Source: a virus. From it: 62,493 nt of DNA. The notes under the pieces were generated by a model. That model had not been told where the DNA came from. It worked only from the letters and a program-made list of their open reading frames with translations, and did not search any database. A program made the position numbers and the translations under genes. Positions 23,859-55,846 of the stretch are shown here, one piece after another. The first letter of the stretch is position 1; the number at the start of each line of letters is the position of its first letter. The DNA is taken from the IMG/VR virus record IMGVR_UViG_3300042934_000841, positions 1 to 62,493 of that record. One strand, given 5' to 3'.

Positions 23859-24299
23859 TTACCTTCCTAATACGACAACGAACTCACGCGGATGATCATC
23901 GAACAACCGCTTGTAGACGTGCCGGATATCTGAATAATAGTTAAGGCCGCCATTGCCACAGCCAAAGGGAGGCAGTGCAATGACACCAAATTGGGGTTTG
24001 TCCCGACTGATGTCAGCCAGTTTCTCAAGGTTTGCAATCACCAGATCCCGAGGGGAGTCATCCCGCCAGTCAATCTTGGTGGGGATCATCAAATGCACTT
24101 CACCGTTGGAATTGAACACGATGAACTGGTTCGGGGTAATCTGGGTGTACATCTTCTTGTAATGCTTGTACCAGCCTGGCACACGGTTACGGAACTCCTT
24201 GGCTACGCCAGCACCTGCGGCACCGACCAAGTTAATGGTACAGATGCGGGTGTTAGCAGGGACTTCAAGGATGTCCTCATACACCTCTCTCATCGACAT
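23859..24299 (-). CDS. DarG-like macro-domain protein (ADP-ribose hydrolase candidate)
   Basis: A 146-residue protein that follows the DarG/ALC1-like macro-domain pattern. It has CTINLVGAAGAGVAKEF (20-36; typically N..G.MG.G.A..F), PTK..WR (73-79) and LPPFGCGNGGLNY (109-121; typically PPLGCGNGGL.W). DarG removes ADP-ribose from DNA thymidine and neutralises DarT toxins, which defend against phages. A free-standing phage copy is therefore a good anti-DarTG or general de-ADP-ribosylation candidate. I start it at ATG 24299, with GGGTGG upstream. It is followed directly by the 399-aa gene and preceded by a UUCG hairpin. Confidence 0.8.
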   Translation of the reverse strand: MSMREVYEDILEVPANTRICTINLVGAAGAGVAKEFRNRVPGWYKHYKKMYTQITPNQFIVFNSNGEVHLMIPTKIDWRDDSPRDLVIANLEKLADISRDKPQFGVIALPPFGCGNGGLNYYSDIRHVYKRLFDDHPREFVVVLGR

Positions 24300-24356: not shown

Positions 24357-24878
24357 TTACCGCTTATTACGCTGTGTAGCAGGACGGTGGCGCACTGGAA
24401 TCTTCTGCCGCAGTGGGTTCATTGCAGCTTCAGCTTCTTCGGCTTCCTTGGTCGCTAACTTGTCACAGCGCTTAAGCAGCTTGTCGCACTTGTCGCGGGG
24501 CAACATGAGGAACGCATCGAACGTGGTGCCGGTGTACTTGAGCACGTTCGCATTCAAGTACTTATCCAGCTCACGGTCGAAGGGGTCCACAATCGACAGG
24601 TCTTCAGCTTCATGCAGGGACGAGATGGAAAACATCGTGTCCCCGATGGTGCTGCTAGCTTCAATGCCCATCTCCTCATCGTAGATCTCATTGGTGACGA
24701 TCTGGGCAGCGATGCTGCCGATGGGGTTCTGGGCCTCGCTCAGCACTTTGTCAATCAGGGGCAGGTAGCCCTTCTGAAAGAGGTGAAGACCGAACTGACG
24801 ATCACCGACGTGGAAACCACGTTCTATGCTTCGTCCGCCGCGTCCTCGATCCCCTTGATCTTCAGACCGGCTAGGGTA
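24357..24878 (-). CDS. -1 frame extension of the 24824 gene (frameshift product C-terminus)
   Basis: This frame is open from the slippery run at 24878-24885 to a stop at 24357 and encodes 173 residues. Protein-like sequence (GFHVGDRQFGLHLFQKGY, then LIDKVLSEAQNP) begins before the first usable start, a GTG at 24746. There is no ATG, and no ribosome-binding site is evident. It is in the -1 frame of the 550-aa gene, whose codons GTT TTT TTT form U UUU UUU. A ribosomal -1 shift would join residues 1-533 to this segment for a 706-aa protein. The C-terminus is basic (RHRPATQRNKR). Alternative: an independent gene starting at GTG 24746 (129 aa). Confidence 0.55.
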   Translation of the reverse strand, partial: YPSRSEDQGDRGRGGRSIERGFHVGDRQFGLHLFQKGYLPLIDKVLSEAQNPIGSIAAQIVTNEIYDEEMGIEASSTIGDTMFSISSLHEAEDLSIVDPFDRELDKYLNANVLKYTGTTFDAFLMLPRDKCDKLLKRCDKLATKEAEEAEAAMNPLRQKIPVRHRPATQRNKR

Positions 24879-26476
24879 AAAAAAACGTAGCCAATGTCCA
24901 GAGGAATGAGGTGAGGGTGCTTGGTCAGGTCTTCAGCCGGTTCTTTCTGGCACTTCGGGCACGGCGACTTCGGCAGACCGATGACGGTTACCGAACAGGC
25001 GTCGATCCACTTCATGATGCTGTCATCCAGCAACTTGAGGGCCGACTTGTCACCCGAGATGACTTCCAGCGCTTCGTCCTTCTTGACGGGATCGTCGACG
25101 ACGTTCGGGTCCAGGCCTTCCTGCGTTTGGATCTCGACACGCTCGATCCAGTGGCTGTATTGACGCAGGCTGGTCATCATGCTGGAACGCACGATGTGGC
25201 GATAGCGGTCCACTTCCGTCAGCTTCAGGCCGAAGGCACGGTTGGTCGCATCGGCAATGCCGTCGACCCAGCGATAGCCCGCATCGATCTGGTCAGCCAG
25301 CGTCGGCACAGCCAGGAAGGCGGTGACGGACTTGTTCAACTTGATCGAACGGTTGTCGAACGGGAACTCGGCTTGGTATTCAGCCAGGCCTGCACGGTCC
25401 AGTTTCGCTGTACGCGAAGCCATCATGCGCTTTTGCTTCGGCGTCAGGCGGTCACGGTCGGTGTACGACAGGCGAGCGATCGAGAGGATGGTCTCGTCGA
25501 GGTAGTCGCACTTGAGCGGGTTGGCCACGCATGGTTGACGGAACGGGTAGCCGTCCGGGTACATGGCAGTCAACAGGCCGTACATCAGCTGCGGGAAGTC
25601 GGTGGACTTGATGATGCTCAGCAGCTCTTGCGTGTGATCGACGGTGTCGAACTCGTAGGTCACCGCGTACATGTGATCCAGCGCGAACTTGGCATACGCG
25701 GCAGTGGTGTACACTTCGGTGTTGGAGAACGCCATGCCGTTGGAGTAACGGCCCAGGGTGGCCTTTTCCATGCGGATCTGCTGATCGAGGTCCAGCAGTT
25801 CAGCGTTGGACGGTGCGCGCAGGGTGATCCAGATGCCGGTGTGCCACAGCGGGACCTGCACCAGTGCACCTTGGCCCAGCGAGTTACGGATCTGAATGAT
25901 CGGGTCAGCGACGCGGTCGAGTTTCACACGGCGGGTGCTCAGCTCGGTGTCGTTGTGCAGGACAGACTGCTGCCAGTCGCCCTTGGTGAAGCTTTGGCCG
26001 AAGTACGAGGTCTGCCAGATCGGCGAGAGGGACCGTACGATGTTGACCAGACGACGCTCGGAGGCGCTCATCTTCTCGGCTTGCTCTTCGGTGATCTCGG
26101 TCAGGCCATGGGCCTCGAGGATCGCTTCTGCTTCTTCAATGCCCACACGCATGGCCGCCAAAGCCGTGCCCACTTTGGACAGGTCTTTCTTGATGGTAGG
26201 CGGTGAAGCCATGGTTACGTGCTTGTTGGGAGTAAAGAAGTCTTCCCACATGCTTTCATCGATCTGAGCTTCAGCATCAGCCTTCAGGTCGACGTTGTCA
26301 GCTGCTTCGTCGGTGGCCATGGCAAAGGCGTCTTCCAGCGATGCAGGTTGTTGTTCAGGTGTTACGGCGCCACTGATACGGGAAGCAAGGGATTGCTCTT
26401 CGGACTGAACGGGGTTCAGCTCGATATCAATCTCATCCATGCCACCGTCGCCAGCGGGTTGTTGTTCATCAGCCAT
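24824..26476 (-). CDS. 550-aa protein with C-terminal slippery site, candidate tail assembly chaperone
   Basis: A 550-residue protein starting at ATG 26476 with AAGGAAG. The N-terminal ~95 residues are acidic and disordered (EEQSLASRISGAVTPEQQP). The middle is a folded helical domain. Near the end CPKCQKEPAEDL (about 502-513) has a Cx2C pair. The codons encoding V-F-F at residues 531-533 contain eight U; beyond them the 0 frame adds LAGLKIKGIEDAADEA and stops, while the -1 frame stays open for 173 codons. Two-product -1 frameshifting with an acidic first product is typical of phage tail assembly chaperones. That role is inference; size is larger than usual. Confidence 0.65.
   Translation of the reverse strand: MADEQQPAGDGGMDEIDIELNPVQSEEQSLASRISGAVTPEQQPASLEDAFAMATDEAADNVDLKADAEAQIDESMWEDFFTPNKHVTMASPPTIKKDLSKVGTALAAMRVGIEEAEAILEAHGLTEITEEQAEKMSASERRLVNIVRSLSPIWQTSYFGQSFTKGDWQQSVLHNDTELSTRRVKLDRVADPIIQIRNSLGQGALVQVPLWHTGIWITLRAPSNAELLDLDQQIRMEKATLGRYSNGMAFSNTEVYTTAAYAKFALDHMYAVTYEFDTVDHTQELLSIIKSTDFPQLMYGLLTAMYPDGYPFRQPCVANPLKCDYLDETILSIARLSYTDRDRLTPKQKRMMASRTAKLDRAGLAEYQAEFPFDNRSIKLNKSVTAFLAVPTLADQIDAGYRWVDGIADATNRAFGLKLTEVDRYRHIVRSSMMTSLRQYSHWIERVEIQTQEGLDPNVVDDPVKKDEALEVISGDKSALKLLDDSIMKWIDACSVTVIGLPKSPCPKCQKEPAEDLTKHPHLIPLDIGYVFFTLAGLKIKGIEDAADEA
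24878..24885 (-). promoter_or_regulatory. U UUU UUU slippery run for -1 frameshifting
   Basis: On the minus strand TAC GTT TTT TTT ACC places T TTT TTT in the canonical X XXY YYZ register of the 0 frame. It is the only run of this kind seen at a gene end with an open -1 frame downstream. Confidence 0.6.
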
Positions 26477-26525: not shown

Positions 26526-26921
26526 TCAGACTTGTTGCTGCTGTTGTTCAGCAGCGATGATCTGGTCGTTCAGAATGCTGGTCAGCTCGACAGCGGCTGG
26601 ACCCATGACGCCATGAATGTCTTCGATGATGCCAATATAACGGCCACCCACATCCATGGCCTGGCTATAGTGGCTCAGGCGTTTTGGCACAGCTGGCCAC
26701 TTCGCGTGCTTGGTTTCGATTTGTTGGATCTGGTCGGTGAACTCGCGAGTATCACGGGTGATCACTTCAACGAGTTCTTCGACTTTGGCTTTGACTTCGG
26801 GATCAGCGATGTTGGCTTCTTTGGCCACCAGCGCTTGTCGACCGAAACGAGCAAGCAGTTCTTTGGAGGAGAGATTGAGGGCCTTGACATCGTCGAAGGC
26901 CTTACGATTTGAATTGGACAT
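26526..26921 (-). CDS. Hypothetical protein, 131 aa, poly-Gln tail
   Basis: A helical 131-residue protein ending EQQQQQV. The ATG at 26921 has AAAGGAA at 8 nt; one two codons earlier is less well placed. It lies 49 nt upstream of the frameshift gene in the same leftward direction, so the two may act together, as small tail-chaperone partners do. No family recognised. Confidence 0.7.
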   Translation of the reverse strand: MSNSNRKAFDDVKALNLSSKELLARFGRQALVAKEANIADPEVKAKVEELVEVITRDTREFTDQIQQIETKHAKWPAVPKRLSHYSQAMDVGGRYIGIIEDIHGVMGPAAVELTSILNDQIIAAEQQQQQV

Positions 26922-27018
26922 TTTCATGTTCCTTTTAAATTAATAACCTTGACGGCCAATGATTTGTATTTCACCCATAGTAGGTCGGGTAAACTTTTTA
27001 TTTTAAGTCGGGGCAACC

Positions 27019-53944: not shown

Positions 53945-55846
53945 TTAGTAGTTACGACGGCCCAGGCCGTTGCCCAGAGGCGAACGACGGTTGTTGCGGT
54001 TGCCACCCACATCGCGAGCGCGGTTGAAGATACCGCCAGATACGTCGCCAGCGGCGAAGGTCTGGATGCGGCTGTTGCCACGCAGGCGACGGTTGCCGAA
54101 CGAGTACATGGTTTGGTTCTGATCGATGCCGACGTTGCAGTCGTCAACGGCCAGTGCCAGAGCCTGGATCGCGTCCGGGTTCACGTACAGCAGGTTCACG
54201 TAGCGAGCGAACTGGACGTTGTTGCCCAGTACCGATTGCAGCATGCGGGTTTGCTCGCTGACACGAACTTCCCAGTCCAGATCGACGTTGTCGAAGGTTT
54301 CCTGCCAGTCGATGGCCAGGTTCGGATCTTCGTTGCCGGTCTGTACCAACCAACGCAGCATGTCGAAATCGCGCAGGTCGCGAGTTTCGCCTTGGTCGTC
54401 GACGTAGGTACCGGACAGGTAGCGAGCACCCGACAGGCTGACGAACTTCTGCACGCCCAGATCGTTCGCACGACGGGTGAAGTTGCCCAGGGTCAGGCGG
54501 TCAGCGTAGTCCCACAGACGGTCTTCCGACGCACGGTCGCCTTGTGCAGCAGCCCACAGCAGGGAAGTGATCCAGCTGTTGTCGCCACCTTCTTCGACTT
54601 CGATACCCCAAGCCAGCTTCTCGCGAACCAGGCTGAAGAAGTAATCGGACCACTCGTCCAGATCCAGGTTGGTGCGGCTGCCCAGCTCGACGTATTCGCG
54701 AGTAGCGCCATGCAGAGCCAGGTAGCCCACATCGCGGTAGTCGGTCTTGCCACGCTGTTGGTCGTTCGGCAGGAACACTTGTGCCCAGTTCTGGTTACGG
54801 CTGATCACCGAAGCACCGGCCAGGCCGAGCAGCAGCAGCTCTGGAGTGATGGCGTTGCCGCCAGTGTCCAGGTTGTCGATGATGAACACCGGGGTGTAGA
54901 CCTGGGTGTTGTCGCGACGGTTGCGGCTGAAGCCTTCGCCTTCGCTGTCCGGCGAGTAGACCAGGTTCACGTAGCCGCCGACGGTGGTCAGGCGGTTGCG
55001 AACTTGCTGATCTTCCATCTGGATGGTGCCGCTGATGTTCACGACCAGATCGGAACGGCGTGGCAGTTGGTCAGCGGTCTGCACTTCGCGGCCCGAGACG
55101 TCGACGCTGATGTCCAGGTTCTCACCCTTGGCCAGCCACTCGAGGTCGAAGTACAGCTCTTGGTCGGTGTCGTTCACGACCATGGCGTTCAGGGAAGCCA
55201 GGGCGTAGAACGCGATTGCACGGACCGACGCGTTGTCTTTCAAGCTGAAGTCAACCAGCTTGGAAACGGTACGCCAGCCAGCGTCAACCACTTCGACCTG
55301 ACGACGGTTGTCGCTGAAGTGCTTGGCGACGATGTCGCTGGCAGTTTTCAGGTAGCCGTCGGTGACGAAGTCGCCAACCACGCCTGGGATCGGGTACTGA
55401 CGACGGTTGATGTCGTAAGTCTTGACCGGGATGTCGCCATCGACCGAGCTTTCCAGCACAGCGACGTAGGTGTAGACGTTCAGACGACCGTCTTGTTCGT
55501 TCGGGTAAGCGAAGATCACCGAGGACGCTTGAACGTTGTGCTCGCTGGCTTCCATACCGAGGATAACCAGTTTGTCCAGGGACACGGCGCCGTTGCCGCC
55601 AACGTTCTTTTCAGGCGACAGCCATTCTTTCAGGCTGGTCATGGCGTGAACGAGGGCTTCACCGCCGGTGTTACGGGCCAGAGGGCCGCCGAGCAGACGG
55701 TTAACGTCTTTCAGGGTGCCGCTGCGGCGGGTGGAAGCTTGCTCAGGAGCGGCACTGCGAGTTTCCTCACGGGCTGGGCGCTCTTGACGCTGAGAGTTGT
55801 TGTTCGAACCGGCTGGTTGACCGGTGTCTTTTTCGTTTACAGCCAT
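53945..55846 (-). CDS. chmA: Probable phage-nucleus shell protein, chimallin (ChmA)
   Basis: A 633-residue protein. Reported chimallin of 201phi2-1 (gp105) is about 630 residues. The first ~45 residues are disordered (GSNNNSQRQERPAREE), then come about 530 folded mixed alpha/beta residues and a basic, disordered tail (about 595-633) ending GRRNY. ChmA lattices join through flexible N- and C-terminal segments, so this fits. The strongest support is order: it precedes the beta'-N gene exactly as phiKZ gp54 precedes gp55. It stands alone behind a TACATTAT early promoter and before a hairpin, as expected for an abundant early protein. It could instead be another abundant structural protein. Confidence 0.65.
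   Translation of the reverse strand: MAVNEKDTGQPAGSNNNSQRQERPAREETRSAAPEQASTRRSGTLKDVNRLLGGPLARNTGGEALVHAMTSLKEWLSPEKNVGGNGAVSLDKLVILGMEASEHNVQASSVIFAYPNEQDGRLNVYTYVAVLESSVDGDIPVKTYDINRRQYPIPGVVGDFVTDGYLKTASDIVAKHFSDNRRQVEVVDAGWRTVSKLVDFSLKDNASVRAIAFYALASLNAMVVNDTDQELYFDLEWLAKGENLDISVDVSGREVQTADQLPRRSDLVVNISGTIQMEDQQVRNRLTTVGGYVNLVYSPDSEGEGFSRNRRDNTQVYTPVFIIDNLDTGGNAITPELLLLGLAGASVISRNQNWAQVFLPNDQQRGKTDYRDVGYLALHGATREYVELGSRTNLDLDEWSDYFFSLVREKLAWGIEVEEGGDNSWITSLLWAAAQGDRASEDRLWDYADRLTLGNFTRRANDLGVQKFVSLSGARYLSGTYVDDQGETRDLRDFDMLRWLVQTGNEDPNLAIDWQETFDNVDLDWEVRVSEQTRMLQSVLGNNVQFARYVNLLYVNPDAIQALALAVDDCNVGIDQNQTMYSFGNRRLRGNSRIQTFAAGDVSGGIFNRARDVGGNRNNRRSPLGNGLGRRNY

Follow-up and report, generated by a model that had tools for sequence, protein, structure and literature searches.

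Candidate programmed -1 ribosomal frameshifting in a predicted gp26/gp51-type tail assembly chaperone gene of phiKZ-like jumbo phages

Introduction

A class of tail gene frameshifts of the lambda gpG/gpGT type was reportedly described by Xu, Hendrix and Duda in 2004, and the gpE/gpE+E' pair of phage P2 has the slippery site T TTT TTG. Here we describe a locus of similar design in the virus record IMGVR_UViG_3300042934_000841, of which a stretch of 62,493 nucleotides (nt) was analysed as a whole (the window): a gene for a protein of 550 amino acids (aa) with a run of T near its 3' end, followed in the -1 frame by a long open reading frame (ORF). PMC12846349 describes tail assembly chaperones (TAC) as a short form plus a form with a C-terminal extension added by a -1 shift, reports for Vandenendeviridae and Andersonviridae a conserved GTTTTT near the 3' end of TAC-N, past which the -1 frame runs uninterrupted, and cites Vladimirov, Gautam and Davidson 2022 for TAC frameshifting in T4-like phages. 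For T4 itself gp26 and gp51 are classed as hub assembly chaperones, gp51 being required yet absent from the particle (PMC3004832).

For phiKZ-like phages we found no frameshift in the open-access full-text literature, subscription journals lying mostly outside this search, and two reviews that deal with phiKZ and jumbo phages (PMC13282480, PMC7909554) give none for these phages. Within that scope this agrees with an earlier interpretation of the DNA alone (the sequence-only reading), which knew of no published frameshift in the group and had proposed a -1 shift producing the tail chaperone pair of a nucleus-forming phage. Taken as a whole, a -1 slip giving a 550-aa and a 706-aa chaperone appears to us quite probable from the sequence comparisons presented here.

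Slip site and reading frames

The 550-aa gene on the minus strand (Table 1) contains a run of eight T (24885-24878), over which the 0-frame codons are GTT TTT TTT ACC, with V531, F532 and F533 as the corresponding residues. As the sequence-only reading had pointed out, this puts T TTT TTT in the canonical slippery register near the end of the gene, and the heptamer lies 61 nt before the 0-frame stop. Its description of a -1 frame open for 173 codons past the slip was equally accurate: this frame is free of stops from 24932 to 24357 (191 codons in all), and fusion of the two frames yields 706 aa. Its statement that the -1 segment holds no ATG was true only in part, as the first ATG is codon 69 after the slip, with none between the slip and that codon or upstream in the open frame. 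The first GTG lies at 24746, and no ATG, GTG or TTG occurs in the window in the first 44 codons past the slip or upstream in the open -1 frame.

The site is far beyond what chance would produce in the window. Only two in-frame heptamers of the T6 type occur in its 14,509 codons, and this one alone is near a gene end; the other lies 2.1 kb before its stop, and there the -1 frame stays open for just 21 codons. Of the 31 genes, only one more has a -1 frame that remains open beyond 40 codons at its 3' end (568 codons). TTT makes up 21% of Phe codons in the window genes, and T TTT TTT encodes one of their 27 FF pairs.

Table 1. Positions of the features discussed (numbered on the whole window)
Feature	Position	Strand	Remarks
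0-frame gene, 550 aa	24824-26476	minus	candidate short form (TAC-N)
Slippery heptamer T TTT TTT, within the T8 run	24884-24878	minus	X XXY YYZ register; conserved in homologs
-1 segment, 173 codons + stop	24357-24878	minus	C-terminal extension of the 706-aa long form; phrog_12109
Dual-coding overlap, slip site to 0-frame stop	24824-24878	minus	0 frame TLAGLKIKGIEDAADEA, -1 frame YPSRSEDQGDRGRGGRSI
Candidate stimulatory stem-loop	24836-24871	minus	GCCG...CGGC outer helix, ~6 nt past the heptamer; weak, z -2.3
Upstream 133-aa gene	26526-26927	minus	
Chimallin-family (nuclear shell) protein	53945-55846	minus	PF25677, E 7.8e-34
Macro-domain-like gene	23859-24299	minus	phrog_335; PF01661 below cut-off
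Virion protein, 1267 aa	29239-33042	plus	phrog_18270

Conservation among phiKZ-like phages

The 550-aa protein was matched by tblastn in 221 phage records, and the matches listed were phiKZ-like jumbo phages. We compared 20 deposited and 74 IMG/VR loci, 95 with the window and 83 of them distinct; phiKZ, PhiPA3, Goslar, Moabite and IMG/VR contigs were among those examined. The sequence-only reading had suggested looking for the U-run and the -1 frame in relatives, and both are conserved: all 83 distinct loci carry a run of five to eight T at one aligned position and a downstream ORF in the -1 frame reaching 150-192 codons past the slip. No relative has the downstream segment in another frame, and both outcomes favour that reading. 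Typically the run is read as x-F-F-T-L in the 0 frame and as F-F-Y-P in the -1 frame. A canonical T TTT TTN heptamer is present in 58 of the 83 loci (T TTT TTT in 39, T TTT TTC in 18, T TTT TTG in one). The first Phe codon is TTT in every one of them, compared with 30% TTT elsewhere in these genes, a contrast that does not translate into a probability because the loci are related.

Two trivial causes were considered and rejected. A homopolymer sequencing error is contradicted by the agreement of 83 distinct loci from many assemblies, and a -1 frame left open over this length by chance, in a genome rich in GC, is ruled out by conservation together with the ratio of nonsynonymous to synonymous divergence (pN/pS) given below.

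Selection on the -1 frame and alternatives to ribosomal slippage

For pN/pS we used 124 pairs at 60-97% identity of the -1 protein. In the -1 frame the ratio was 0.256 from the 0-frame stop up to the first possible start codon, and 0.259 in the rest of the segment. Within the dual-coding overlap pS (0.127) and pN (0.069) were both low, as would be expected of two frames in use. The stretch devoid of start codons thus evolves as protein and must therefore be entered from upstream. This constraint ahead of any start codon appears to us to be the strongest single argument for recoding.

A separate downstream gene, translated from its own start codon by internal initiation or reinitiation and without any frameshift, would be in line with the deposited genomes that annotate a downstream coding sequence with its own start, with the in-frame ATG upstream of the slip in some loci (MadMel), and with the ATG found three codons past the slip in cyanophage-type genes. 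Such a gene would need neither the T-run nor the -1 phase, yet that phase is kept in 83 of 83 loci; moreover protein-level constraint precedes the first possible start codon, the window offers its first GTG only 44 and its first ATG only 69 codons past the slip, and in phiKZ no gene is annotated across the -1 segment. No ATG of any kind stands ahead of a conserved FG position in 49 of the 79 scorable loci. We regard a separate gene as improbable, and programmed -1 ribosomal frameshifting at T TTT TTT as very likely from these patterns. On this reading the downstream ORF would not be a gene of its own in the 221 matching records. None of the region tables examined contains a frameshift annotation, and public records have very probably assigned part of the protein to a separate gene or overlooked it.

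Alternatively, a phage RNA polymerase might add a base on the T8 run and produce a mixed mRNA with no slip of the ribosome. These phages have their own RNA polymerases, and the 8-nt run of the window is borderline long enough. Runs of six are too short for efficient polymerase slippage, and runs of only this length are found in PhiPA3, FLC9, Psa21, D6, pir03 and all 54 cyanophage-type sites. Because so many sites have only six T while the canonical heptamer register is kept (58 of 83), we favour ribosomal over transcriptional slippage and consider the latter highly improbable.

Identity of the protein

The 550-aa protein was assigned to phrog_4585 (E 5e-90), and its homologs include phiKZ gp77, PhiPA3 gp74 and 201phi2-1 gp136, in part according to the homology notes of the PhiPA3 record. 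An AlphaFold2 (AF2) model built from a 50-sequence alignment had a predicted local distance difference test score (pLDDT) of 84. With this model, Foldseek against BFVD ranked phiKZ-like homologs and unnamed relatives highest, followed at ranks 20-26 by T4-like baseplate hub assembly proteins, baseplate proteins, one hub assembly chaperone and one unnamed protein (E 1.7e-4 to 0.05, best probability 1.00). A fold search of the PDB gave nothing significant. Pfam and single-sequence hhalign comparisons to T4 proteins were too weak, and the signal came with the gp26 family profile, to which residues 204-534 aligned colinearly on positions 9-240 with the Cys pairs and the FF end included (E 4.8e-5, a moderate match). 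The long form would have the architecture of gp51, the short form plus a C-terminal extension, but the homology of the two extensions is weak. Fold and profile comparison with T4 gp26/gp51 support the tail chaperone function proposed in the sequence-only reading, and the modelled structure and the alignments indicate that the pair is likely an enlarged gp26/gp51-type TAC pair (TAC-N/TAC-NC).

With a genuine frameshift the protein could nevertheless be a structural baseplate or hub subunit, or have some other function, and the long form could be a minority structural isoform. Some studies call T4 gp26 a hub component (PMC3004832), public annotations include 'baseplate protein', and the neighbourhood consists of RNA polymerase and virion genes with no recognised tail cluster. 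On the other side, the same source counts T4 gp26 and gp51 among the hub assembly chaperones, a short form with a C-extension made by a -1 shift is the TAC pattern in PMC12846349, and PHIKZ077, unlike its neighbours 079-081, has no structural note. A structural role therefore seems to us unlikely, and a chaperone pair remains our preferred interpretation. It would give an identity to a core phiKZ-like gene labelled hypothetical (phiKZ gp77, 201phi2-1 gp136, PhiPA3 gp74) and put forward a candidate for the tail assembly chaperone pair that has been missing for nucleus-forming jumbo phages, tying their tail assembly to T4 gp26/gp51.

Several observations weigh against a chaperone pair made by a -1 slip. 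The first T of the heptamer is replaced by G or A in 20 of the 83 loci (G TTT TTT in 11, A TTT TTT in seven, G TTT TTC and A TTT TTC in one each), and five others (L075, L076, L077, L081 and L083) have T5-T6 only, with a non-canonical heptamer. No universal RNA stimulator was found, the mean z over the 70 nt downstream being -0.85, and a Shine-Dalgarno (SD)-like sequence upstream was found in only 2 of 95 phiKZ-like loci, which rules out a universal stimulator of the SD type. The pairwise tests carry no correction for phylogeny. In the hhalign comparisons the gp26 alignment has a probability of 68, and the match of the -1 domain to the gp51 extension is weak (probability 26, P 7e-4). PF12322 matched none of nine phiKZ-like genomes (E <= 10) and not the window protein (E <= 0.1), and no recognised tape measure gene adjoins the 550-aa gene.

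Candidate stimulatory structures and variant sites

The window and its close relatives have in common a short helix (GCCGC/GCGGC) some 6 nt past the heptamer, with almost no covariation, and Rfam gave no match. A universal downstream structure is unsupported; a strong stem is confined to the Psa21/D6 group. In the eight loci of this group, D6 included, a strong stem-loop follows right after the slip (z about -3, no compensatory pairs) and the heptamer is A TTT TTT (G TTT TTT in L044); possibly the stem-loop compensates for the weaker heptamer.

The second Phe codon is replaced in a metagenomic lineage (L075, L081 and L083, compared with L072), where the site reads GTT TTT ACC, TCC or ATC and the -1 ORF is intact. 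Here the slip would be on G GTT TTT.

Proposed mechanism

Slip site, register, conservation and coding selection ahead of any start codon are read directly from the DNA; from them, and from the T4 comparison, we infer the occurrence and frequency of slippage, the chaperone role and the action on the tape measure. Most ribosomes would stay in the 0 frame and produce a 550-aa gp26-like chaperone ending in the conserved Cys-pair...FF.L. A fraction, with tRNA-Phe in both the P and A sites, would shift back by one base at T TTT TTT and go on translating in the -1 frame, giving the 706-aa form with an additional, mainly helical C-terminal domain of 173 aa. The two products might serve as TAC-N and TAC-NC for the tape measure and the baseplate hub, equivalent to T4 gp26 and gp51.

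Comparison with other frameshift systems

PF12322 matches both gp26 and gp51 of T4, the latter being extended by a C-terminal part (phrog_634). More distant T4-like phages encode this phrog_634 part at the same FF codons, in the -1 frame of gp26, and their gp26 3' ends read AGT TTT TTC in Sf-FS3, GAT TTT TTC in IC12 and GAT TTT TTG in RL38J1. Cyanophage-type gp26 genes from IMG/VR have T TTT TTC in 54 of 54 distinct loci with the extension in the -1 frame, and in 53 of these an SD-like element starts 12-15 nt upstream, as in dnaX. T TTT TTC/G combined with a gp51 extension in the -1 frame is thus seen in T4-like gp26 genes of both cyanophage-type and Rhizobium phages. Cyanophage-type genes also have an ATG three codons past the slip, and reinitiation is possible there. 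T4 and Acj9, which encode a separate full-length gp51, read TTC TTT and TTT ATT at this place, with no heptamer and no -1 extension, and form a natural control.

The phiKZ-like pair resembles T4 gp26/gp51 in predicted fold and colinear profile, in the Cys-pair...FF.L end of the short form and in a long form made of this domain plus a C-terminal extension. It differs in size, with an N part of 550 aa compared with 208-245 and a C extension of 173 aa compared with about 60. The two T4 proteins come from separate genes. The phiKZ-like gene lies outside a recognised tail cluster and goes undetected by PF12322. We regard it as an evenly balanced question whether a chaperone gene of the gp26 type, with the -1 slip at FF already in place, predates the split of phiKZ-like and T4-like phages and has been kept since, T4 having swapped the slip for a gene duplication and the phiKZ-like version having grown more than twofold and left the tape measure cluster. 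If true, few recoding sites of tailed phages would be conserved more deeply.

Vandenendeviridae and Andersonviridae TAC genes share with the window the T-run at the 3' end of the short form and the open -1 frame, but belong to other phage families and have the classic site upstream of the tape measure gene. T TTT TTG of P2 also occurs in pEa54 and RL38J1; gpE/gpE+E' differs in size and operon. In contrast to lambda gpG/gpGT and the class attributed to Xu, Hendrix and Duda 2004, the window gene is followed by no recognised tape measure gene, and it has a T-run where lambda has G GGA AAG. The kind of recoding is known and matching T4 gp26/gp51 biology already published; the novelty lies in its occurrence in this group of phages, in how large the two domains are, and in the gene standing apart from any recognised tape measure gene.

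Genomic context

Since the window encodes a chimallin-family protein (Table 1), the phage is of the nucleus-forming type, as the sequence-only reading had assumed. A chimallin search found no match in Moabite, CR5 and pir03, which have the same frameshift site, suggesting that the recoding does not depend on formation of a nucleus.

Annotated homologs of the 0-frame gene are immediately preceded by a small gene, and many adjoin a divergent gene pair ending in RNA polymerase beta. Neighbours in the window are the Macro-domain-like gene, hypothetical genes, RNA polymerase beta and the virion protein. The Macro-domain-like gene is directly downstream of the -1 segment, and Goslar has a Macro-domain gene at the same place. 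The 1267-aa virion protein contains about 10 repeats of a unit with a W-S/T-x-A/D-E motif, and the gene at its place encodes 966 aa in DT01, whereas phiKZ has gp81 there, with 473 aa.
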